From Streptococcus suis (lineage in GTDB: Bacteria; Bacillota; Bacilli; Lactobacillales; Streptococcaceae): a stretch of DNA of 64,000 nucleotides. The translations under genes were made by a program, and so were the position numbers. Positions 3,001-63,224 of the stretch are shown here, one piece after another (position 1 is the stretch's first letter; the number at the start of each line of letters is the position of its first letter). The notes beneath the pieces were generated by a model. It did no database searches. It was not told the origin of the DNA and saw nothing but the letters and a program-made list of their open reading frames with translations. The stretch spans positions 1,364,001-1,428,000 of the forward strand of contig CP102145.1 in the NCBI GenBank assembly GCA_024583055.1. Direction: 5' to 3'.

Positions 3001-5341
3001 CCAAGAACTGACCCAGAGAAGCTGCACTAGTCAGAACCTTGCTACGTTCTTCCAGCTCTTTTCCAGCTGCTTTTAGTTGACCATTGACCAGATATTTAGC
3101 AATATCCTTGAAGCCAAAGTCCAACAAACTATCCATAGTACCGATTCCCAAGTCACCCTTGGTATCCTTATAATTTGCTCCCCAAGTTTCCCCAATCAAG
3201 TGGAAGTCAGGGTCTCTATCCACCAATTCATTTTTGAAATGCTGCCATGTGGTATCATCAACGTGTTTGACTGTATCGACACGGAAAGCATAGATAGAGT
3301 TGCCCTTGGCAGTTGTTGAGCGTTCCAACCAAGATGCCTGCCAAGCAACCAACTGATTGCGAACAGCTGCTTCTTCTGTCTTGAAGTCTGGTAATCCAGA
3401 TAATGAGCCTAATTGGTCATCTCCCTGCTTATCTTCTTCCTTAGTTCGTACCATACCTGCAAAGGTTTCTTCTGTACCATAGCCAGCATGGTTAAGAACC
3501 ACATCGACAACAATGCTTATTCCTTTTTCTGCCGCAGCATCAATCAATTCGTGGAAATCGGCTAAACTTCCCAAATGCGGATTTAGTTTCTCAAAATTGG
3601 ATGCCCAATAACCATGGTAAGCATAGTACTCTCCATCTGTTGCGCTACCAACATTCTGTGGAATATTTTCCACAATCGGAGTCAACCAGATAGAATCCAC
3701 ACCCAATTCTTTCAAGTAATCCAGCTTGGCTGTCACTCCTTTGAAGTCACCGCCCTGGTAAAGACCGCGTGGGTTGGAGGCTGTTCCTTCCACTAGCTTA
3801 TCATTGCTGGTGTCTCCATTATAGAAACGGTCTGTCATCATAAAGTAGATAACTTGCTCGTCCCAGTCTTTTTCACCATCTGCCTTGATACGCTCTGTAA
3901 TGGTCACATCTAATTTTGTTTCGTAGTAACCGTTGTCCTTGTCATAGACCTTTACAGGAAGACTATATGTCCCTGGCGCTGTGCTAGACGTCGCTTTAAT
4001 GGTCACACGATTGAGCTCAGTAGAGATTGGAACAAGACCTCCACCGATGGCACTTGTATCGACTTCCATTTTGACAATCTCAGCATTTTCAGGGTTAGTG
4101 ACAGTTACAGATACCAAGCCACTTTCATTGTAGTTGAATGGTGCTTTGCTACTAGCCTCAAGTGTCACATTTTTTGTACCCGGCGTAGCTTTGCTGGTAT
4201 CGAGTTCTACTTTCTCTTCGATAAAATATGGATTGGTATAGACTTTATCGTCACCGTTTCGAAGGAAAATTTGGCTATGCCGTTTACGGTCAGCAAAGGC
4301 TAAATCAATTGTTTTATTACCTGCCAAATCTGGATTATTCTGATTGATTAGCAGAAATCCAAGCTTGGAATCTAAACCATTCGATAGAGGAATGTCAACA
4401 TGGGCACCGTATTTGCCAAGTTTAAAGTCAAGGGCGCCCGTTGGCCAGCCATCACTCGCTTCAGTCGTATCCCCCCAAGTCCAAACGCCCCAACCTTCAT
4501 AATTGTTGTCTTCACGTGTGTAATTGATACGGAGGACATTTTCATCTTTGAGCGGCTCATAGCTAGACACGCTATAATCGCTCGCAACCCAAGCTTCATT
4601 CTGCTCTGGGACCAGTAGCTCCACTTTTTGGTCCGATTCTGTTATTTTTTCCCCATTCTTGAGAACCAGGTAGCCAATCGTTCCTGGTGTCTCAGATTTT
4701 TTAATATCAACGTAATGGCCGTAGTCATCTACCTGACTGCTTGAAAAGTTCGCTGTATCCGTTGGCCATTGATTACCATCGGACGGCTCTGCCACTCCAC
4801 CCCAAGTCCAAAGTCCTTGACTTTCTGGTGCTGTTTCATCTACATTTTCAAAGTGCAGACGAATGCTGCCTTCTTCGATAGGGGTTTCTGCCGGGGTGGA
4901 TAATGTAGCTGTTTCTGCTGCAGCTCTTTCTGCCACAGCTGTTTCAGTAGTTGCCAGCGGTTCTGCTGATGCATTATCTACTGTTTCAACAACCTCCGTT
5001 ACTGCTGGAGTCTCAACTGTTTCTGATACTCCAGTTGAATTTGATGTAGACTCAGTCACCGTTTCTTCTGAACTTGGTGCTGTATCCAAGGCTGTAGGCG
5101 TAGTCTCTGCAACTGGGGCTGGCTCAACTGTTTCGACAGGCTGCTCAGAAACATCGGTTATAATAGCTTCCACAGGAGTAGCCACTTCCTCAGCATGAAC
5201 TGTTTGACCAGGTCCAGACATTAAAAAGGCTGTCGCTATACCGACGGACGCAACTCCTATCGTAAACTTACGAATTCCGAAAATAACTTTTTTTTCAAAC
5301 ATTGGTGATTTTTTTACTAAACGCAAACGTTTTCTATTCAT
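1..5341 (-). CDS. apuA: Amylopullulanase ApuA, N-terminal 1780 codons (cut by left edge)
   Basis: Large secreted, probably wall-anchored enzyme that breaks alpha-1,4 and alpha-1,6 bonds of starch, glycogen and pullulan. The ATG at 5341 follows a good AAAGGAG. Residues 1-50 are a signal peptide with a YSIRK-like motif (FGIRKFTIGVASVG), then a Thr/Glu/Ala-rich linker to about 155. Two CBM41 starch-binding modules (about 155-265 and 269-367) precede a GH13 alpha-amylase domain with region-II RVDTVKH (nucleophile D689), acid E718 in IGETWG and D784 in GSHDED. Two more CBM41 modules (about 983-1196) precede a pullulanase domain with YNWGYDP, DVVYNHT, D1626 in GFRFD, E1655 in GEGW and D1743 in AHDN. 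Both catalytic sets look complete. The C terminus, where an LPXTG anchor would sit, lies outside the window. Linked to the LacI-type regulator gene upstream. Confidence 0.95.
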   Translation of the reverse strand, partial: MNRKRLRLVKKSPMFEKKVIFGIRKFTIGVASVGIATAFLMSGPGQTVHAEEVATPVEAIITDVSEQPVETVEPAPVAETTPTALDTAPSSEETVTESTSNSTGVSETVETPAVTEVVETVDNASAEPLATTETAVAERAAAETATLSTPAETPIEEGSIRLHFENVDETAPESQGLWTWGGVAEPSDGNQWPTDTANFSSSQVDDYGHYVDIKKSETPGTIGYLVLKNGEKITESDQKVELLVPEQNEAWVASDYSVSSYEPLKDENVLRINYTREDNNYEGWGVWTWGDTTEASDGWPTGALDFKLGKYGAHVDIPLSNGLDSKLGFLLINQNNPDLAGNKTIDLAFADRKRHSQIFLRNGDDKVYTNPYFIEEKVELDTSKATPGTKNVTLEASSKAPFNYNESGLVSVTVTNPENAEIVKMEVDTSAIGGGLVPISTELNRVTIKATSSTAPGTYSLPVKVYDKDNGYYETKLDVTITERIKADGEKDWDEQVIYFMMTDRFYNGDTSNDKLVEGTASNPRGLYQGGDFKGVTAKLDYLKELGVDSIWLTPIVENIPQNVGSATDGEYYAYHGYWASNFEKLNPHLGSLADFHELIDAAAEKGISIVVDVVLNHAGYGTEETFAGMVRTKEEDKQGDDQLGSLSGLPDFKTEEAAVRNQLVAWQASWLERSTTAKGNSIYAFRVDTVKHVDDTTWQHFKNELVDRDPDFHLIGETWGANYKDTKGDLGIGTMDSLLDFGFKDIAKYLVNGQLKAAGKELEERSKVLTSAASLGQFLGSHDEDGFLYSLGGAEKEGNLDKLKLAASLLITAKGQPVIYYGEEVGQSGQNNWPVYGNRYDFDWSKVETSDITDHYQKLLAFRNANSTLLSRGDTSTLAGNDSQGWLISKRSYQDQAAYLVFSTNTESKEMALEVSGKDVVVTDAYTGKTYQAIEKDGKWVVQVELPTIGQGGTMLLQTQAGDIVNASVQGATEEPIEAGYFRVHFKTLPSDNVSSLGLWTWDDVEKPSSDLGAWPTGATNFSTAKQDDYGYYLDIKMKDETASKISLLINNTSGENITGDKVIERISTKMNEAWFDENYQLSLYQPLKEGYIRINYFRTDGDYDQKGLWIWGDVTDVTLGDWPNGIDFENQGKYGAYIDVKLTDLPSSIGFLLLDESKSGDDVKIQQKDYSFKDLKNQTQIFLKDDDATIYTNPYFVNNVRVTGVSHVSLTALEAAFTTLEGADKESILEKLSVTDKNGQTVNVTDLVLDATSNKVRVLGDFNQENAGYTLKYGNDSFTTTMSWQLKDELYAYDGELGARVSQAGSVVDMTLWSPSADSVAVVLYDKDDQSKVVGTLAMTKGDKGQWDLELNGQSGLGITDYRGYYYHYEITRGDQSVLVLDPYAKSLAEWNSDLADTDPSYRIAKAAIVDPAEVGPSDLNYATIPNFNQREDAIIYEAHVRDFTSDPAISDELTAQFGTFAAFAELLSYLKELGVTHIQLLPVMSYYFVNELKNAERMSEYASSNSNYNWGYDPQSYFAFTGMYSTDPTDPMKRIEEFKNLVNEIHKQGMGVILDVVYNHTSKTFLFEDLEPNYYHFMEADGTAKSSFGGGRLGTTHYMSRRVLVDSIKYLVDEFKVDGFRFDMMGDHDAEAIELAFTEAQKLNPNIIMLGEGWRTFTGDANQPVQPADQDWMSSTDTVAVFSDEIRNTLKSGYPNEGQPAFITGGAKSVESVFNNIKAQPGNFLADDPGDVIQYIAAHDNLTLFDIIAQSIKKDPSVAENYTEIHQRQRLGNLLVL
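5323..5334. promoter_or_regulatory. LacI-type operator copy inside apuA codons 3-7
   Basis: The plus-strand 12-mer GCAAACGTTTTC lies inside the first codons of apuA. The same 12-mer occurs at the apuA promoter and at the apuR promoter, so it is probably an auxiliary operator for ApuR and/or CcpA. The codons here encode part of the basic N-region of the signal peptide. Confidence 0.6.
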
Positions 5342-57648: not shown

Positions 57649-57954
57649 TTATTTAGAGGCAATATTTTGGAAAAAGTCAAATTGGCGATAGGTCAGATTT
57701 TCCGGTAAGGTCAAATCTACATCGTCTTCCACATCTGCCACAGTTAATTCCACATCCAAGGGCAAATCCTTCAGTCTATAACGTCTGATTACGCGCCCCT
57801 CCGCACTGACAAAGTCCAGCAAATACCCATTCACCCGAACTTGATACAACATCAACTTATCCGTTAAATTTTCAATGACCAACATATCCATCTTTCTACG
57901 TCCGATCGTATATTCTGGAACTCTATAGTAGTGAAATTTTTTATCCATGTCCAA
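57649..57954 (-). CDS. Unknown 101-residue protein, last gene of the bacteriocin operon
   Basis: A soluble, highly charged protein (MDMDKKFHYYRVPEYTIGRR; acidic C-terminal half with VADVEDDVDLTLPENL). No signal peptide or membrane segment. I do not recognise it. It overlaps the ABC ATPase gene by 14 bp, so it is translated from the same message as the lactococcin 972-type genes. Possible roles are regulatory or immunity, which is inference only. The start may be the first or third codon. Confidence 0.75.
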   Translation of the reverse strand: MDMDKKFHYYRVPEYTIGRRKMDMLVIENLTDKLMLYQVRVNGYLLDFVSAEGRVIRRYRLKDLPLDVELTVADVEDDVDLTLPENLTYRQFDFFQNIASK

Positions 57955-58582
57955 TCTCCTTCATGTCAATGACCACATCTGCTTTTTCCCAGACAGCAGG
58001 GTTATGAGTCGCAATGACAATCACACGGTTGTCATTTTTTAGCCCTGTCAAGAGTTGCATGACCTCTTCTGAATTTTTGGGGTCGAGTGCCGCAGTCGGT
58101 TCATCGGCCAAAATCAGTGGTGGATTTTTTAAGATAAGCTTGGCCAAGGCAACCCTCTGGGCTTCACCTCCCGATAAGGTATAAACCTTTTGTTCTAAGT
58201 CTAAGTAGCCCAAGTTCACCTGCTCCAAAGCTTCATTTTGTAGTCGCTGCCGCTGCTCTTTTTTGACCTTCTGTCCGACAAATCCCAAGTCTAAATTGTC
58301 TCCGATTGATTGATTATCCAGGAGACCAATCGTTTGGAAGAGGTAGCCCATGTGATCTCGAAAGAACTGCTGGGAAGCTAGCTTCGACAAATCTTGACCC
58401 TGATAATCAATCCGTCCGCCGTCAGCTTTTTCCAACTTGGCCAGCATATTTAGCAAGGTAGTCTTTCCGCTACCGCTTTTTCCAATTAAAGCATAGACCT
58501 TGCCCCTTTCCAACGTCAGATGTAAGTTTGAAAAAATCTCCCGTTCTTCAAATCGCTTTTCCAATCCCTGAATTTCAATCAT
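57941..58582 (-). CDS. ABC transporter ATPase of the lactococcin 972 type
   Basis: 213 residues with Walker A GKSGSGKTT (about 34-42), Q-loop LFQTIGLLDN, signature LSGGEAQR, Walker B LILADEPTAALD and switch His in ATHNP. Resembles the ATPases annotated with lactococcin 972-group bacteriocins, thought to act with the large membrane protein in export or immunity. One base separates it from the membrane protein gene stop; AAAGGA lies inside that gene's end. Confidence 0.9.
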   Translation of the reverse strand: MIEIQGLEKRFEEREIFSNLHLTLERGKVYALIGKSGSGKTTLLNMLAKLEKADGGRIDYQGQDLSKLASQQFFRDHMGYLFQTIGLLDNQSIGDNLDLGFVGQKVKKEQRQRLQNEALEQVNLGYLDLEQKVYTLSGGEAQRVALAKLILKNPPLILADEPTAALDPKNSEEVMQLLTGLKNDNRVIVIATHNPAVWEKADVVIDMKEIGHG

Positions 58583-58583
58583 T

Positions 58584-60614
58584 TTATTGTCCTTTCAACA
58601 CTGCTACGTTGGCAGTTTGTTCTTTCTTATCTTGTCTTCCCAGTATGACCAGGGCATTTAAGGTGAGCAAGCCTACAGTCAGACCGCTCATAACCACATC
58701 TCCTGTCAACCAAGTTGATACCAGCAAGCCCAGTACAAACACACCAGCTTGGCCTAGGAGGTAAGATCCATGAAGTTCATAGAAGGTCATTCCGGCCAAA
58801 CGCTTGATAAACAGCTCTCGTCTGAATTGTTCAAAATAGAGCAAACTCATCGCATCAAAAAGCAAAACAGCCGTTGCCAGTGTCAATACTGTACCGATGA
58901 GAAGCGAATAAAACTCTGTTCGCTTGGTGTTCAAAACGCTGACAAAGGCCAACCGCTGATTCACCAAATAGGATACCCAGTTATAAACACCCTGCTCTTT
59001 CATGACTTCAATAGTCGCCTCATAGCCTACAAACTTCATCCCTAAATCCAGACTAGTTCCCCAGAACATATCCGAAACTGGTGTCGCACCTGTTGACTCA
59101 GGAGTCAAAACAACAATAATCGGGTCTGTCAGATATTGGGTCTGGCTCCGATCGCCATCATTGTAGAGAAACCGCTCTTGACCACTGTCTGTAAAGGCCA
59201 GACTTATCTTGGTAGCGAACATCTGTTGGCTGTTACTTTCTAGGCTTTGTCGGGAAAATGCCTCTAATTCTGTCTGGAACATATTTTGTACTTGCTCAGC
59301 TTGTTCTCGCAAGCTAGCTGGTAAAATCAAACCATACTCACCCAGGCTCAGATGATTCATTTCCTCCAAGAAGGCTTGGTCTACCATCACTCCCTGCTCT
59401 GTCAGATAGCGAGGAGATACGTAGATGACATTGCCACGAGGATTATAATCCGTCAGGCGATTGCCCTCAGGATCCACCTCGCCACCGAAGGCGTACTGGT
59501 CGACATTGCTTTTCACAAAGAGGGCTTCTGTCGTCTCTAGCTGTACTTTCGCAAACTCTCGCCACTTTTTATTCTGCTGGGCCACTTCCTCCTCGGTCAT
59601 CATAGCAGAGCTGTAACTAAAAACAGATTTGTAATAATCATCTCTCAATGCCCATTCTTCCTGTGCCTGTTCAAGCAAGCGAATTTCCTGATAGCCCTGC
59701 AATAGACGGCTAGAGCTAAAACCTACTACCAAAATAGCCAGAAGTTGCCCAACCATCATCATAGCCAACATCCGTTTGAGAGGAAGTTTTCCCTTGAGCA
59801 AATCAACCAAGCTATTTTGCCTCAACCCCAGGAAATACACTAGGCTAAGTAGGACAGAAATACTAGCAAGAGCCAGTGCATAGAGGAAAAGCCCCAGGAA
59901 AAAGACCTGCAAGATGGATAGTAAAAATCCAGCTTGAAGATAGAGAATAAGAGGTCCGATTATAGCCCCCACCGATGTAGCCATCACAATCTGACGAATA
60001 TCCTCCCATAAAGGTCGAGCCACCACCTGTAAGAAACTTTCACCTGAAATCAGACGAATTCCTGCAAATCGTAAGGTCTTAATCCGATAGATTAAGGTGA
60101 GAGCCATGAAGGTCAAGAGAAAGACAAAGAAACTCAGCATGGCTACTTCTGAAACGACTGTGGATAGGAAGATGCTAAAGAGAGAATAGCCATGATGGAC
60201 CATGCCACTGTAACCCAGTGATTCCAAGCTTTCTTTCAAGACTTGGTTGTCCAAATCTCCTGAAACAATCAGATAAGTACTAACCAAGTCGCTGGTTTCA
60301 GCACTTTCCTTGGAGGAAACGGTCAAACCTTCTGGAACCTGTCCGCTACCATAGATGGCGTAGGTAAAACTGGTTTCCCCAGAAGCATTAGGCTCGACAA
60401 TCCGTCTAGCAATCACACTCTTATGTTCCTCTGCCAAGTCGGTCAAGACCTCTGTCACCTGGTCACGATTGGCTGTCTGTCTATTGGTATCTTTCCCGAT
60501 GACATCCACTGCCTGATAAGAACCAAACTCTACAAGACTAACCTGACCAGCCAAAGAAATACCCAGGTAAATCGCTACCAATACAGTCGACACTAGAATA
60601 AATAAACGTTTCAT
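58584..60614 (-). CDS. Bacteriocin-associated integral membrane protein (DUF1430 type)
   Basis: 676 residues from the ATG at 60614 (MKRLFILVSTVLVAIYLGIS), with GGAGG 5 nt upstream; a longer frame has no such site. One N-terminal helix, an extracytoplasmic part, a cluster of helices (about 165-300), a second large outer loop and three C-terminal helices: the 7-TM, FtsX-like layout of proteins linked to lactococcin 972-type bacteriocins. It probably forms the membrane part of the ABC transporter for immunity or export. Confidence 0.88.
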   Translation of the reverse strand: MKRLFILVSTVLVAIYLGISLAGQVSLVEFGSYQAVDVIGKDTNRQTANRDQVTEVLTDLAEEHKSVIARRIVEPNASGETSFTYAIYGSGQVPEGLTVSSKESAETSDLVSTYLIVSGDLDNQVLKESLESLGYSGMVHHGYSLFSIFLSTVVSEVAMLSFFVFLLTFMALTLIYRIKTLRFAGIRLISGESFLQVVARPLWEDIRQIVMATSVGAIIGPLILYLQAGFLLSILQVFFLGLFLYALALASISVLLSLVYFLGLRQNSLVDLLKGKLPLKRMLAMMMVGQLLAILVVGFSSSRLLQGYQEIRLLEQAQEEWALRDDYYKSVFSYSSAMMTEEEVAQQNKKWREFAKVQLETTEALFVKSNVDQYAFGGEVDPEGNRLTDYNPRGNVIYVSPRYLTEQGVMVDQAFLEEMNHLSLGEYGLILPASLREQAEQVQNMFQTELEAFSRQSLESNSQQMFATKISLAFTDSGQERFLYNDGDRSQTQYLTDPIIVVLTPESTGATPVSDMFWGTSLDLGMKFVGYEATIEVMKEQGVYNWVSYLVNQRLAFVSVLNTKRTEFYSLLIGTVLTLATAVLLFDAMSLLYFEQFRRELFIKRLAGMTFYELHGSYLLGQAGVFVLGLLVSTWLTGDVVMSGLTVGLLTLNALVILGRQDKKEQTANVAVLKGQ

Positions 60615-60630
60615 CATCTCCTCCAAAGAA

Positions 60631-60662
60631 TTGCTTGGAACTACAAGAGTAGTTCCAAGCAA
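60631..60662. terminator. Perfect 14-bp hairpin between bacteriocin and transporter genes
   Basis: TTGCTTGGAACTAC (60631-60644) pairs fully with GTAGTTCCAAGCAA (60649-60662), 4-nt loop. The minus-strand tail is only TTCTTTGG, so termination should be partial. Likely reduces transcription into the transporter genes or protects the 3' end of the bacteriocin message. Confidence 0.75.
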
Positions 60663-60673
60663 AGTGTACTGTG

Positions 60674-60967
60674 TTAATAGTTATAATAGAAAGCTGCTTG
60701 CTCTCCAAGTTTTGTACTAATCCATGCACGAGAGGTCTGTCCTGCCTGTGCGTACCCTTTACTTGAGGCTCCAGTCCATCGACTTACCACTGTTGAACTA
60801 TGGTAGCGACTACCGTGGTAATAGTTTGAATAGGCACCACCATTTGCTGCTCCGTATGTCCAAACTCCACCACCAGGATACTGTACAGCCGCTGAAGCCA
60901 CTGCTGTTCCGCCAATTGTTGCTGCAAGTCCCGCGATGAGTGCAAATTTTTTAAGTGTCTTTTTCAT
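60674..60967 (-). CDS. Lactococcin 972-family bacteriocin precursor
   Basis: 97 residues. A Sec signal peptide (MKKTLKKFALIAGLAATIGG, probable cleavage after ASA at 26) leaves about 71 residues rich in Gly, Tyr, Ser and Trp, starting AVQYPGGGVWTYG and ending AAFYYNY. This is the pattern of lactococcin 972, which blocks septum formation by binding lipid II. No double-glycine leader and no Cys, so not a class II or lantibiotic peptide. AAAGGAG is 9 nt upstream. Directly followed by its family membrane protein and ATPase genes. Confidence 0.92.
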   Translation of the reverse strand: MKKTLKKFALIAGLAATIGGTAVASAAVQYPGGGVWTYGAANGGAYSNYYHGSRYHSSTVVSRWTGASSKGYAQAGQTSRAWISTKLGEQAAFYYNY

Positions 60968-61066
60968 TCATATTTTCTCCTTTGTATTTTCAATTTTATT
61001 GTTTATTTTTTAGGTCTAATTCCTTTCACGAAATAATACACCTTTTCAAAAAATACATCTCATTTA

Positions 61067-61123
61067 CTATCCTCGCTTTATCCACCAACCTGAAATATCC
61101 AAAATTTTGAAATAGCCAAACAT
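61067..61123 (-). CDS. Candidate ComS-like pheromone precursor, 18 residues
   Basis: Encodes MFGYFKILDISGWWIKRG. AAAGGAG lies 10 nt before the ATG. The C-terminal Trp-Trp recalls WW-type XIP pheromones (for example GLDWWSL of S. mutans), which are cut from the C terminus of ComS and sensed inside the cell by ComR. The gene sits just downstream of two ComR-type regulators, behind a ComR-box-like palindrome and a -10, and about 100 bp upstream of the bacteriocin gene. No terminator separates it from the bacteriocin gene. Length and mature form are inferred; not an annotated gene type I can confirm. Confidence 0.7.
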   Translation of the reverse strand: MFGYFKILDISGWWIKRG

Positions 61124-61158
61124 ACTTTCTTAACTCCTTTAATTTTATTTACATTATG

Positions 61159-61202
61159 ACTATATCGACTTTCTACAAAATCACCAATGACAGCAATGTC
61201 AT
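61159..61202 (-). promoter_or_regulatory. ComR-box-like promoter of the peptide/bacteriocin operon
   Basis: Palindrome ATGACAGCAATGTCAT (61187-61202), then 23 nt, then -10 TATAGT (61164-61159, minus strand); no good -35. This resembles ComR-activated promoters, where GACATNNATGTC stands in for the -35 region; here one arm deviates by one base (GACAG). Confidence 0.65.
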
Positions 61203-61244
61203 CAAAAAATACTCTTCAAACCCTAAAAAGTAATAAAGAGATAG

Positions 61245-61288
61245 AAAAAGACCTAAAAGACGAACAATCTCATCTTTTAGGTCTTTCA
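61245..61288 (-). terminator. Terminator after the regulator genes
   Basis: AAAGACCTAAAAGA (61247-61260) pairs with TCTTTTAGGTCTTT (61273-61286). The minus-strand tail is TTTTTC. It separates the regulator message from the peptide/bacteriocin promoter. Confidence 0.9.
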
Positions 61289-61292
61289 GCGA

Positions 61293-61306
61293 TGACATTT
61301 ATGTCA
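61293..61306. promoter_or_regulatory. Second ComR-box-like palindrome
   Basis: TGACATTTATGTCA contains a perfect GACAT-N2-ATGTC. It lies 14 bp past the stop of the downstream regulator gene. A TATAGT follows on the plus strand after 10 nt, pointing into the regulator gene; no -10 is obvious on the minus side. Confidence 0.6.
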
Positions 61307-61320
61307 CCGATAAATTATAG

Positions 61321-62232
61321 TTACAAATATTTTTTCAAATCTTCTTGCCATTGCTTTTCTAACATGGTTACCAAATGTGTATCTTCAATCATATCAGCAA
61401 ATAGTTTTGCTTTTTGATAGAACCCTTCTGCCAAACTATACTTATTCTCCATAACAAGAGCATGTTTCCAATGCAACATAAGTAAAATAGGTTTCTTTTG
61501 AAAATCCTGCGTTTTCTCCATTATTTCTTGAAGACAAGCAATATAAAGGTCAAAAAATTCATAGGACTCCAGCATATCCAAACAAGCCAGACCTGAAAAA
61601 ATAACATTACTCAGAAGAAATAATTGCTCTGGCTGAACAAGATTGACATGCTTTATTAAACGCGATAAGAACGATTGCAACTTGCCAATTTCTGATAACT
61701 GATTTTTCTTGTTTTTTATATGTGCAAATACACTAACGAAATACAGACTAATCAGTTCTAAATCCTTCAACGAAAAGACTTCTTTCTCCTCAAGTTCAGG
61801 TAAATACGTTTCTAATAAGGCTACCGCATATTCTGGATGTTGTGTGCGAATAACATCCAAAATCGCTCTTGACGTTTCAACCCACACCGTTTCCTCTGGT
61901 GGTAATTGTTCACAATACAGTTCTTCTATTTCATCAAGGTATTGTTCCTTTTTATCCAACACCTCCACCTTATTATATATCGGCTCCCGCAACAACTTGT
62001 ACTTGAGTTCCAGATAGCCCTGTGGCAATTCCTTATAGTCTGGCATTAGGCTATAGGCTGGAATGCCTAAACGCTGGGCAATGTACTCTAACTTAGGTAT
62101 AGAGGGCTGCGATTGACCACTTTCTATCCGAGCTAATTGCCGTACCGTCAACTCGGATTCATCTCCACAAAAATCTGGACGGCTCAGCCCCTTTTCTAGC
62201 CTCAGTTGCTCGATTTTTTGCCCTAAAGTCAT
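61321..62232 (-). CDS. ComR-type XRE/RRNPP transcriptional regulator, downstream copy
   Basis: 303 residues. N-terminal XRE helix-turn-helix (about 4-70) with SELTVRQLARIESGQSQPSI, very close in layout to the ELTVRQL-I-RIEKGES motif of ComR, then a TPR-like all-helical C-terminal domain that in this family binds a short imported peptide. GGAGGAGGGGTG precedes the start. It follows its paralogue after 13 bp. Residues 3-94 are identical to the paralogue. Expected to respond to a peptide pheromone; the ligand is inferred to be the WW peptide nearby. Confidence 0.85.
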   Translation of the reverse strand: MTLGQKIEQLRLEKGLSRPDFCGDESELTVRQLARIESGQSQPSIPKLEYIAQRLGIPAYSLMPDYKELPQGYLELKYKLLREPIYNKVEVLDKKEQYLDEIEELYCEQLPPEETVWVETSRAILDVIRTQHPEYAVALLETYLPELEEKEVFSLKDLELISLYFVSVFAHIKNKKNQLSEIGKLQSFLSRLIKHVNLVQPEQLFLLSNVIFSGLACLDMLESYEFFDLYIACLQEIMEKTQDFQKKPILLMLHWKHALVMENKYSLAEGFYQKAKLFADMIEDTHLVTMLEKQWQEDLKKYL

Positions 62233-62245
62233 GTCACCCCTCCTC

Positions 62246-63157
62246 CTACCAATATTTTTTCAAATCCTTCTGCCACTCCTCTGCTAATTTCTGTGCCAGA
62301 TAGTCATTTCCAATGACCTGAGCAAACGATTTGGCTGACTGGTAGACTTTTTCAGCTTTTTCATAATCTTCCTCTAATTTCAAAGCCGCTTTCCATTCCA
62401 GCATAAACAAGAGAGGTTTCTTTTGATAATCTTGCGTCTCTTCCATTATTCCACGAAGACAATCAATATAGATAGGGGCATCGTCATAATATTCTATCAG
62501 TTCAAAGCAGGCAAGCCCTGAGATAATCGCATCTCTTAAATAAAAAGTATCTTCTAATCGAACAAATGTCTGACTGTTGGCTAGTTTTTTCATTAAATAC
62601 GAGATAGATTCAAAGTTGTTTTGAACTCTACTGACTGTATTCTCTCCTATTGTTTGCTGGACAAAAAAGAGCCGAATAAGAATCAAGTCATTGACATCAC
62701 ACACTTTCTTTGCCATAAGAAGTGGTAAGTTTTCTGTCAATAGAGCTACTGCATAATCTGGTTGATTGGTCCGCACCATATCAACCATAGCCTGCATAGC
62801 CTCACAGATAAGCTGCTCAGTCTTAGGTAGTTCTTCAAAATAGGTATTATATATGGTTTCGATATACCCATCCTGTTTATCCAACACCTCGACCTTATTA
62901 TATATCGGCTCCCGCAACAACTTGTACTTGAGTTCCAAATAACCTTGTGGCAATTCCTTATAGTCTGGCATCAGGCTATAGGCTGGAATGCCTAAACGCT
63001 GGGCAATGTACTCTAATTTAGGTATAGAAGGCTGCGATTGACCACTTTCTATCCGAGCTAATTGCCGTACCGTCAACTCGGATTCATCTCCACAAAAATC
63101 TGGACGGCTCAGTCCCTTTTCTAGCCTCAGTTGCTCGATTTTTTGTCCTAAATCCAT
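62246..63157 (-). CDS. ComR-type XRE/RRNPP transcriptional regulator, upstream copy
   Basis: 303 residues from the ATG at 63157 (MDLGQKIEQLRLEKGLSRPD); an upstream in-frame start at 63175 is less likely. The DNA-binding half is the same as in the adjacent copy, while the C-terminal sensor half (from about 95) is clearly diverged (DKQDGYIETIYNTYFEELPK versus DKKEQYLDEIEELYCEQLPP). First gene of the two-gene regulator operon, with a strong promoter. ComR paralogues of this kind (ScuR, SarF) drive bacteriocin genes in S. salivarius. Confidence 0.85.
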   Translation of the reverse strand: MDLGQKIEQLRLEKGLSRPDFCGDESELTVRQLARIESGQSQPSIPKLEYIAQRLGIPAYSLMPDYKELPQGYLELKYKLLREPIYNKVEVLDKQDGYIETIYNTYFEELPKTEQLICEAMQAMVDMVRTNQPDYAVALLTENLPLLMAKKVCDVNDLILIRLFFVQQTIGENTVSRVQNNFESISYLMKKLANSQTFVRLEDTFYLRDAIISGLACFELIEYYDDAPIYIDCLRGIMEETQDYQKKPLLFMLEWKAALKLEEDYEKAEKVYQSAKSFAQVIGNDYLAQKLAEEWQKDLKKYW

Positions 63158-63195
63158 ACCAGCCCCCCACTGCACCTATTTATCCTTACCTAAAC

Positions 63196-63224
63196 AGTAT
63201 ACCACATCTTGCAAGACTTTACAA
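63196..63224 (-). promoter_or_regulatory. Promoter of the tandem ComR-type regulators
   Basis: Minus strand TTGTAA (63224-63219), 17-nt spacer, extended -10 TGGTATACT with TATACT at 63201-63196. The -35 overlaps the T-tract of the malQ terminator. Confidence 0.8.

Follow-up and report, generated by a model that had tools for sequence, protein, structure and literature searches.

A predicted two-receptor variant of the ScbRS-type bacteriocin locus in Streptococcus suis-like genomes

Positions 57,649 to 63,224 of the 64,000-nucleotide stretch of Streptococcus suis DNA analysed here (contig CP102145.1, positions 1,364,001 to 1,428,000; hereafter the window) hold two tandem ComR-type regulator genes, R1 and R2, a pair of promoter boxes, a short putative pheromone gene and a lactococcin-972-type bacteriocin operon. 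The order of regulator, promoter and scbA/B/C genes with a lactococcin-972 precursor matches that of the streptococcin B (scb) locus. As judged from sequence comparison, the window locus is a two-receptor variant of the ScbRS-type bacteriocin locus in S. suis-like genomes. Its features are listed below.

63196..63224, minus strand: weak candidate promoter of the regulator pair, TTGTAA-17-TATACT with TG ahead of the -10 (9/12 matches; such sites are as frequent in shuffles of the region)
62246..63157, minus strand: R1, ComR/ScbR-type regulator of sensor type T0, 303 amino acids (ComR_TPR E=1e-59; ComR chain 5fd4_A E=1.5e-59)
61321..62232, minus strand: R2, ComR/ScbR-type regulator of sensor type T1, 303 amino acids (ComR_TPR E=2e-56)
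61291..61308, minus strand: box 1, GGTGACATAAATGTCATC, with core at 61305-61294, 15 nucleotides (nt) past the R2 stop and upstream of the terminator
61246..61287, minus strand: terminator-like hairpin past the regulators (hairpins fold in ten other tested spacers too)
61186..61203, minus strand: box 2, GATGACATTGCTGTCATT, with palindromic core GACATTGCTGTC at 61200-61189, 105 nt from box 1
61159..61164, minus strand: -10 element TATAGT, 24 nt past the box 2 core
61067..61123, minus strand: scbS-like putative pheromone precursor MFGYFKILDISGWWIKRG, 18 codons, with a WW pair
61046..61063, minus strand: micro-ORF (open reading frame) of the type MRCxFEKVYxP, 11 codons in relatives and shortened here to 5, between the peptide and bacteriocin genes
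60674..60967, minus strand: scbA-like lactococcin-972 precursor, 97 amino acids (TIGR01653 4.9e-16, 58.8 bits against a cut-off of 32.1; PF09683 2.3e-15)
60631..60662, minus strand: 14-bp hairpin in the gap between the bacteriocin and membrane-protein genes (a similar inverted repeat is seen by eye in the gaps of several relatives)
58584..60614, minus strand: scbB-like bacteriocin-associated membrane protein with seven transmembrane segments, 676 amino acids (TIGR01654 1.8e-88, above cut-off)
57941..58582, minus strand: scbC-like ATP-binding cassette (ABC) ATPase, 213 amino acids (TIGR03608 3.6e-80, above cut-off)
57649..57948, minus strand: ScbD (our own label), 99 amino acids counted from ATG, a conserved family without a name and without a Pfam or NCBIfam match

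The gap between R1 and R2 is 13 nt, and the two genes are probably co-transcribed. A sequence-only reading of this DNA had proposed a self-contained ComRS-like circuit driving a lactococcin-972 operon, and this description is well supported by the conserved boxes, the -10 spacing, the peptide, the operon order and the separate comRS genes of the genome. Its parts are all found: both regulators carry the PF18710 ComR_TPR domain, a terminator-like hairpin follows them, the ComR-box-like palindrome stands at the canonical spacing from its -10, and the 18-residue WW peptide ORF is present. The precursor, the membrane protein and the ATPase all exceed the curated cut-offs of their families, the small gene at the operon end measures 99-101 amino acids, every named part lies on the minus strand, and the terminator-like sites predicted in the region include none from the peptide ORF to the bacteriocin gene. 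The same reading had taken the coupling of a ComRS-like pair to lactococcin 972 as undescribed. This claim fails, because Richardson et al. (mBio 2024, PMC11796350) describe it for scb in S. pneumoniae and S. pseudopneumoniae, using pneumococcal reporters.

As in the window, scbR/scbS/scbABC has a ComR-type regulator directly upstream, a box-n20-TATAAT promoter, a WW peptide, a precursor, a membrane protein and an ATPase. However, scb has one receptor and the pneumococcus lacks its own peptide, while the window has two receptors with a common DNA-binding half, and another peptide and sensor type. Since the locus does not have the single regulator of scb, we describe it as working like scb, in a two-receptor variant. 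The main text of PMC11796350 does not contain the terms suis, paralog, tandem or ‘two regulators’.

Relatives were collected from 284 genomes of the genus. Lactococcin-972 precursors occur in 77 of them (in 61 above the curated cut-off) and relatives of R2 in 220, many of the latter being distant ComR-like proteins, left unsorted. A contig scan gave 56 loci, 26 of which were used (L067-L092), the other 30 matching at most residues 1-119. Together with 20 further stretches and the window this makes 47 loci; after setting aside 14 duplicates and L091, a contig end that belongs with L125, 32 distinct loci remain, so that the block recurs well outside the window. R2 is 97-99% identical in four further loci (L067, L068, L069 and L123), including three S. 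suis records. The gene malQ lies upstream of the block in all eleven suis-type stretches that reach that far, hence in these genomes the block appears to occupy one chromosomal site.

R1 and R2 share one DNA-binding half and differ in their sensor halves. PF18710 is present in 11/11 members of an alignment that includes both, with the arrangement of a helix-turn-helix (HTH) and a ComR-type tetratricopeptide-repeat domain, and R1, with which alone the structure-chain search was run, matches solved ComR chains. The two proteins are alike at 93 of 94 N-terminal residues, and their DNA is 96% identical in codons 1-94 and 54% beyond; the sensor halves are 42% identical. At a clustering threshold of 80%, the sensor halves of 35 regulators fall into seven types, R1 being T0 and R2 being T1. 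The same mosaic is seen among the suis types T0, T1, T2 and T4, which are 95-98% identical in residues 1-70 and 40-58% in the sensor halves; the sensor half of T5 is nearest to T2 and T4 (54% each). Two receptors are present in 4/32 loci, namely the window, L069, L075 and L123.

Trees of the two halves were built from 15 hand-chosen regulators of the 35, together with the genome's own ComR. With the N-terminal half the mitis-group sequences form one clade (support 99/100) and a T1+T3 clade is rejected (p-AU, from the approximately unbiased test, 3e-10). The C-terminal half joins T1 from the suis group with T3 from the mitis group (support 100/100) and rejects a clade of the mitis sequences (p-AU 4.6e-5), leaving the placement of T2, T4 and T5 unsettled. 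The tested clades were picked after inspection of FastTree trees, and long branches in the C-terminal tree drew a warning from the tool. Our reading is that at least one sensor lineage would predate the split of the suis and mitis groups, with the DNA-binding half homogenised within each group.

The peptide gene stands straight after the promoter, with a good ribosome site and a C-terminus containing WW. Peptides are found in 16/32 loci; L076 keeps a fused remnant of the start, left by a deletion into the bacteriocin gene, and none is recognisable in the remaining 15. Eleven single-receptor loci have both an intact receptor and a recognised peptide, and in these the five sensor types correspond one-to-one to five peptides: T1 to MFGYFKILDISGWWIKRG (2 loci), T3 to MNFFSLFYLVTWWFK (5), T2 to MFGFMGFFVSFFGDWWKGR (1), T0 to MLKYFFGKLGDVWWTI (1) and T5 to MFGFIMFLTNFSFGDWWHG (2). 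The T5 loci L078 and L082, of the mitis group, carry the published scb peptide with one residue changed, and a T5 sensor with a GDWWHG peptide is the pair demonstrated experimentally in PMC11796350. The T2 and T5 peptides are clearly alike across species groups (score 67.5, next best pair 34). Three of the four two-receptor loci, namely the window, L069 and L123, carry the peptide of T1, which is the receptor nearest the promoter there; the odd receptor in each is the distal one, of type T0 or T2. Three W-containing ORFs, from L071, L085 and L086, were considered as pheromones and rejected, since two of them run up to the ribosome site of the following gene and the third overlaps the promoter box.

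It is very improbable that the 18-codon frame is open by chance and that the promoter answers something else. Such ORFs are indeed short, but this one is identical in 5/5 loci with the T1 sensor, which bears out the conservation on which the sequence-only reading had made its proposal depend; it also has a good ribosome site and a fixed place past box 2 and the -10, where other types have different WW peptides. The peptide type tracks the sensor type across these sequences, with one imperfect case, and R2 is likely the cognate receptor of the resident peptide. For R1 the comparison points elsewhere. Three of the four T0 loci without T1 (L075, L076 with its fused remnant, and L077) carry a peptide of the form MLKYFFGKLGD[VI]WW; a search of the window's genome with the exact coding pattern for GDVWWT finds nothing, and with that for the C-terminus of the resident peptide it finds one site. 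The earlier statement that the peptide activates one or both regulators can therefore be sharpened: R2 is favoured as its cognate, and R1 is matched to the peptide of other strains.

The genome's competence genes lie elsewhere, at G000:C1:1540081, where comR, 38% identical to R1 and 36% to R2, is followed by a comS-like ORF MNFIKAFTTFGAGWDWWWKG (3628-3690 of stretch L004, G000:C1 ~1541127). R1 and R2 are hence not the competence ComR of this genome, going by these identities and positions. The own comS-like peptide ends in none of the three S. suis types of sigX-inducing peptide given in the available text of PMC13361665, and it is possibly another competence pherotype. The own comS promoter has a similar box with the same +24 spacing, and pneumococcal scb is also driven by competence, via ComE (PMC11796350); one could thus think of the locus as driven chiefly by the competence system, box 2 being activated by the ComR of the comRS genes. 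We find this quite improbable, as in other species too the locus comes with a regulator and peptide of its own, and deletion of scbR abolished the peptide induction in the pneumococcus (PMC11796350).

The core of box 1 (7 or 8 of 8 positions) is close past the regulator stop in 32/32 loci, at an offset of 15 in 30 and of 9 and 25 in the other two; the core of box 2 (6 to 8 of 8) is ahead of the peptide place in 32/32, and a -10 matching at least 5 of 6 positions starts exactly 24 nt past it in every locus. The distance between the cores is 105 nt in 26 loci, 104 in 4, 106 in 1 and 108 in 1. When the 200 nt past R2 were resampled 20,000 times at first order, 21 resamples had one core or more; two perfect GACA-N4-TGTC cores never occurred together, nor did a core followed at +24 by a -10 of at least 5/6. 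The box geometry of the window is not random. A pattern describing the box pair matches 26/284 genomes, 25 at scbR-type loci and one elsewhere (G137), and its reversed control gives no matches in the 284 genomes; the match in G102 is a second copy about 1.3 kb downstream at the same locus.

The spacers between the boxes differ in sequence from lineage to lineage, yet their length is near constant. Eleven chosen spacers were compared across four lineages, namely the suis and mitis groups and two other ComR-like ones. Their alignments between lineages barely exceed those of shuffled sequence, if at all (z -1.6 to 2.4; 100 shuffles each), and the length is 92-94 nt in all four lineages, with the exception of 96 in L075. 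Box 1 is absent in 8/15 further ComR-like loci, the two-box ones being L153-L158 and L160, and in the lineage of L157 and L158 the boxes are 200 nt apart; the distances of 105 and 200 nt are near 10 and 19 helical turns, which may reflect helical phasing. The flanks of box 2 track the species group, as the DNA-binding half does: suis-type loci have T-GACA...TGTC-A in 11/11, and mitis-type loci have G ahead of the core in 21/21 and C behind it in 17/21. Box 1 was dismissed as a promoter, there being by eye no -10 at 24 nt in the forward direction. An antisense promoter at box 1 was dismissed as well, because the stretch at the right distance is T-rich through coding for the KKY end of the regulator, which is conserved, and so gives no independent support.

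We favour, with moderate confidence, a two-receptor ScbRS-type locus that acts as an OR gate, with the own signal coming via R2 and a foreign one via R1. By analogy with ComRS and ScbRS, the 18-residue peptide would leave the cell after synthesis, be cut down to its C-terminal part with the WW pair and be taken up again. For the pneumococcal ScbR, activation by the peptide after import by Opp/Ami is on record (PMC11796350). The trimmed peptide would then bind R2, and R2 would bind box 2 and turn on the lactococcin-972 operon downstream along with the peptide gene itself, which would give positive feedback. With a DNA-binding half nearly identical to that of R2, R1 is expected to recognise these boxes too. 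Its sensor half belongs to the type that is paired elsewhere with the MLKYFFGKLGD[VI]WW peptide, which suggests the receptor of a rival strain's pheromone, and as the matched peptide is not found in the window's genome and its likely form is known only from other strains, we infer that R1 is probably a listener that hears these strains. A precedent for such hearing of a neighbour is the pneumococcal ScbR, which has no peptide of its own and answers that of S. pseudopneumoniae (PMC11796350).

Several observations weigh against this assignment. The related loci are not independent, and there are few of them per S. suis sensor type. The 15 loci with no recognisable peptide comprise 11 of T5, one of T3, two of T6 and one of T2. 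L075, with T0 and T4, has the peptide MLKYFFGKLGDVWWTF, which is not assignable to either receptor. The T1 and T3 peptides, with a score of 31.5, barely stand out from other pairs (T1-T2 29.5, T3-comS 30.5), despite the sister relation of the T1 and T3 sensor halves. The fourth T0 locus without T1, in G259 (L125/L091), carries the peptide of T1, and a strict one-to-one pairing of receptor and peptide is thus rejected; its T0 gene is interrupted by other sequence at contig ends, so it is not a clean counter-example, and the association is imperfect still. Finally, in S. salivarius one synthetic peptide lets ScuR as well as SarF, which are paralogues with a conserved HTH, activate PsptA (PMC6703854), hence different sensors need not mean different signals.

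The last two points, and the probable co-transcription of R1 and R2 across their 13 nt gap, would also fit a redundant or graded arrangement, in which R1 and R2 would both respond to the resident peptide, with unequal affinity, and R1 is no eavesdropper. We consider this unlikely, though worth some weight, in view of the sensor halves being only 42% identical and of the different peptide in the three loci that have an uninterrupted T0 without T1 (L075, L076 and L077). R1 could instead be a brake that limits the response, by forming mixed dimers with R2 or by occupying box 1 or box 2 without activation. The DNA-binding half common to both regulators would allow this, and the extra box 1 needs some role; however, single-receptor loci carry box 1 as well, and T0 is the sole regulator in L076 and L077 and must be an activator there if the locus works, which makes a brake rather improbable.

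The ratio of nonsynonymous to synonymous substitution rates (dN/dS) in the sensor half is 0.15-0.24 when the window's R1 is compared with three other T0 genes, 0.08-0.24 among T0 pairs, 0.04-0.16 among T2 pairs and 0.10-0.48 for T1. With these values the odd receptors look maintained, which speaks against their being pseudogenes; against this stands that the pairs include loci whose receptor is probably the working one.

Three further published systems resemble parts of the locus. ScuR and SarF (PMC6703854) are likewise two ComR paralogues with a conserved HTH and diverged sensors, and ScuR controls bacteriocins without competence; they differ in that they share one locus with two transporter genes between them, no peptide gene was found nearby and the bacteriocins are others. 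The word lactococcin does not occur in the text of that paper. In the S. suis comRS pherotypes (PMC4072589) the DNA-binding part is identical, the C-terminal half is variable and each allele has its own peptide, transferable between strains, but there is one receptor, it drives comX, and in the window's genome this is a separate locus. In the Rap-Phr systems of Bacillus (PMC5199041) the signal specificity shifts via a transient duplicated state, with the peptide gene being duplicated there and the receptor in the window. As to the product, Lcn351 of S. suis WUSS351 (PMC9067509) is an active bacteriocin of the lactococcin-972 family with more transcript in stationary phase; the main text of that paper does not contain the word regulator. 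In open-licence PubMed Central papers we found no description of an S. suis two-receptor locus, the group-crossing sensor lineage, the peptide-sensor association, the box pair or ScbD, with ScbD and the sensor lineages not queried by name.

ScbD, the fourth gene of the operon, appears to go with ComR-like circuits in Streptococcus, whether or not lactococcin 972 is nearby. Searches against Pfam and NCBIfam assign it to no family, PHROG gives one marginal match, PDB and Pfam profile searches give marginal matches only, and the structure model is poor (predicted local distance difference test, pLDDT, 54). A profile search within the taxonomic family finds ScbD in 47/335 genomes and 1/10 genera, with 94-106 residues (window, L153-L166 and L168). 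Beyond the scb loci there are 24 distant ScbD genes and two marginal matches (G069 and G271), and among the matches listed a ComR-like regulator is at most 6 kb from at least 23 of the 24, the remaining one being G169:C72. Sixteen stretches of 5-11 kb were taken around distant ScbD genes; an upstream ComR-like regulator is present in 15, and the remaining one, G129:C8, is what is left of an scb locus. Each of these 15 shows a box core matching at 7 or 8 of 8 positions, followed at +24 by a TANAAT -10; 12 have a W-containing micropeptide (nine with WW), and none has a lactococcin-972 match within the fetched stretch. ScbD would therefore go with the circuit class and not with the bacteriocin.

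We propose, tentatively, that streptococci hold an old pool of pheromone sensors, at least one lineage of which crosses the species groups, plugged into a locally homogenised DNA-binding domain that fits the promoter boxes found there. Two-receptor loci would then be OR gates for self and foreign signals that deploy bacteriocin and immunity on hearing a rival pherotype, and the paired boxes, ten helical turns apart, and ScbD would be further conserved parts of a wider circuit class. If R1 indeed hears another strain, a strain could change its dialect without losing contact with its rivals, the route being that the old receptor is kept and a new receptor and peptide are added under one retained promoter. 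The cell may thus answer its neighbours' signal in addition to its own. New handles on the control of ComR-type circuits would come from the ScbD family and the paired boxes.

The micro-ORF, MRC[CI]FEKVY[DI]P, stands between the peptide and bacteriocin genes in 14/32 loci, mostly in those keeping both; shortened in the window, it is in another frame in L075 and absent in L072. Its 20-base pattern occurs in 9/284 genomes, every time at an scbR locus. The inverted repeat at its 3' side was rejected as a conserved RNA hairpin, since by eye mismatches break the stem in several suis copies and no compensating changes are seen.

The cargo of the loci seems to be swapped while the circuit persists. 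L068, L075 and L124 have a second lactococcin-972-like gene, another ABC ATPase and a membrane-protein-like ORF between the promoter and scbB/ScbD, and in L072 and L081 a protein of about 160-180 amino acids with a signal-peptide-like start replaces the bacteriocin gene. Among the distant ScbD loci, L153, L154, L159, L161, L162, L163, L165, L166 and L168 have ComR-like circuits with WW micropeptides (MIKILIFLFITGGWWT, MRHLFEMLGSFSWWW) followed by ScbD, and several of these circuits continue into ABC transporter genes.

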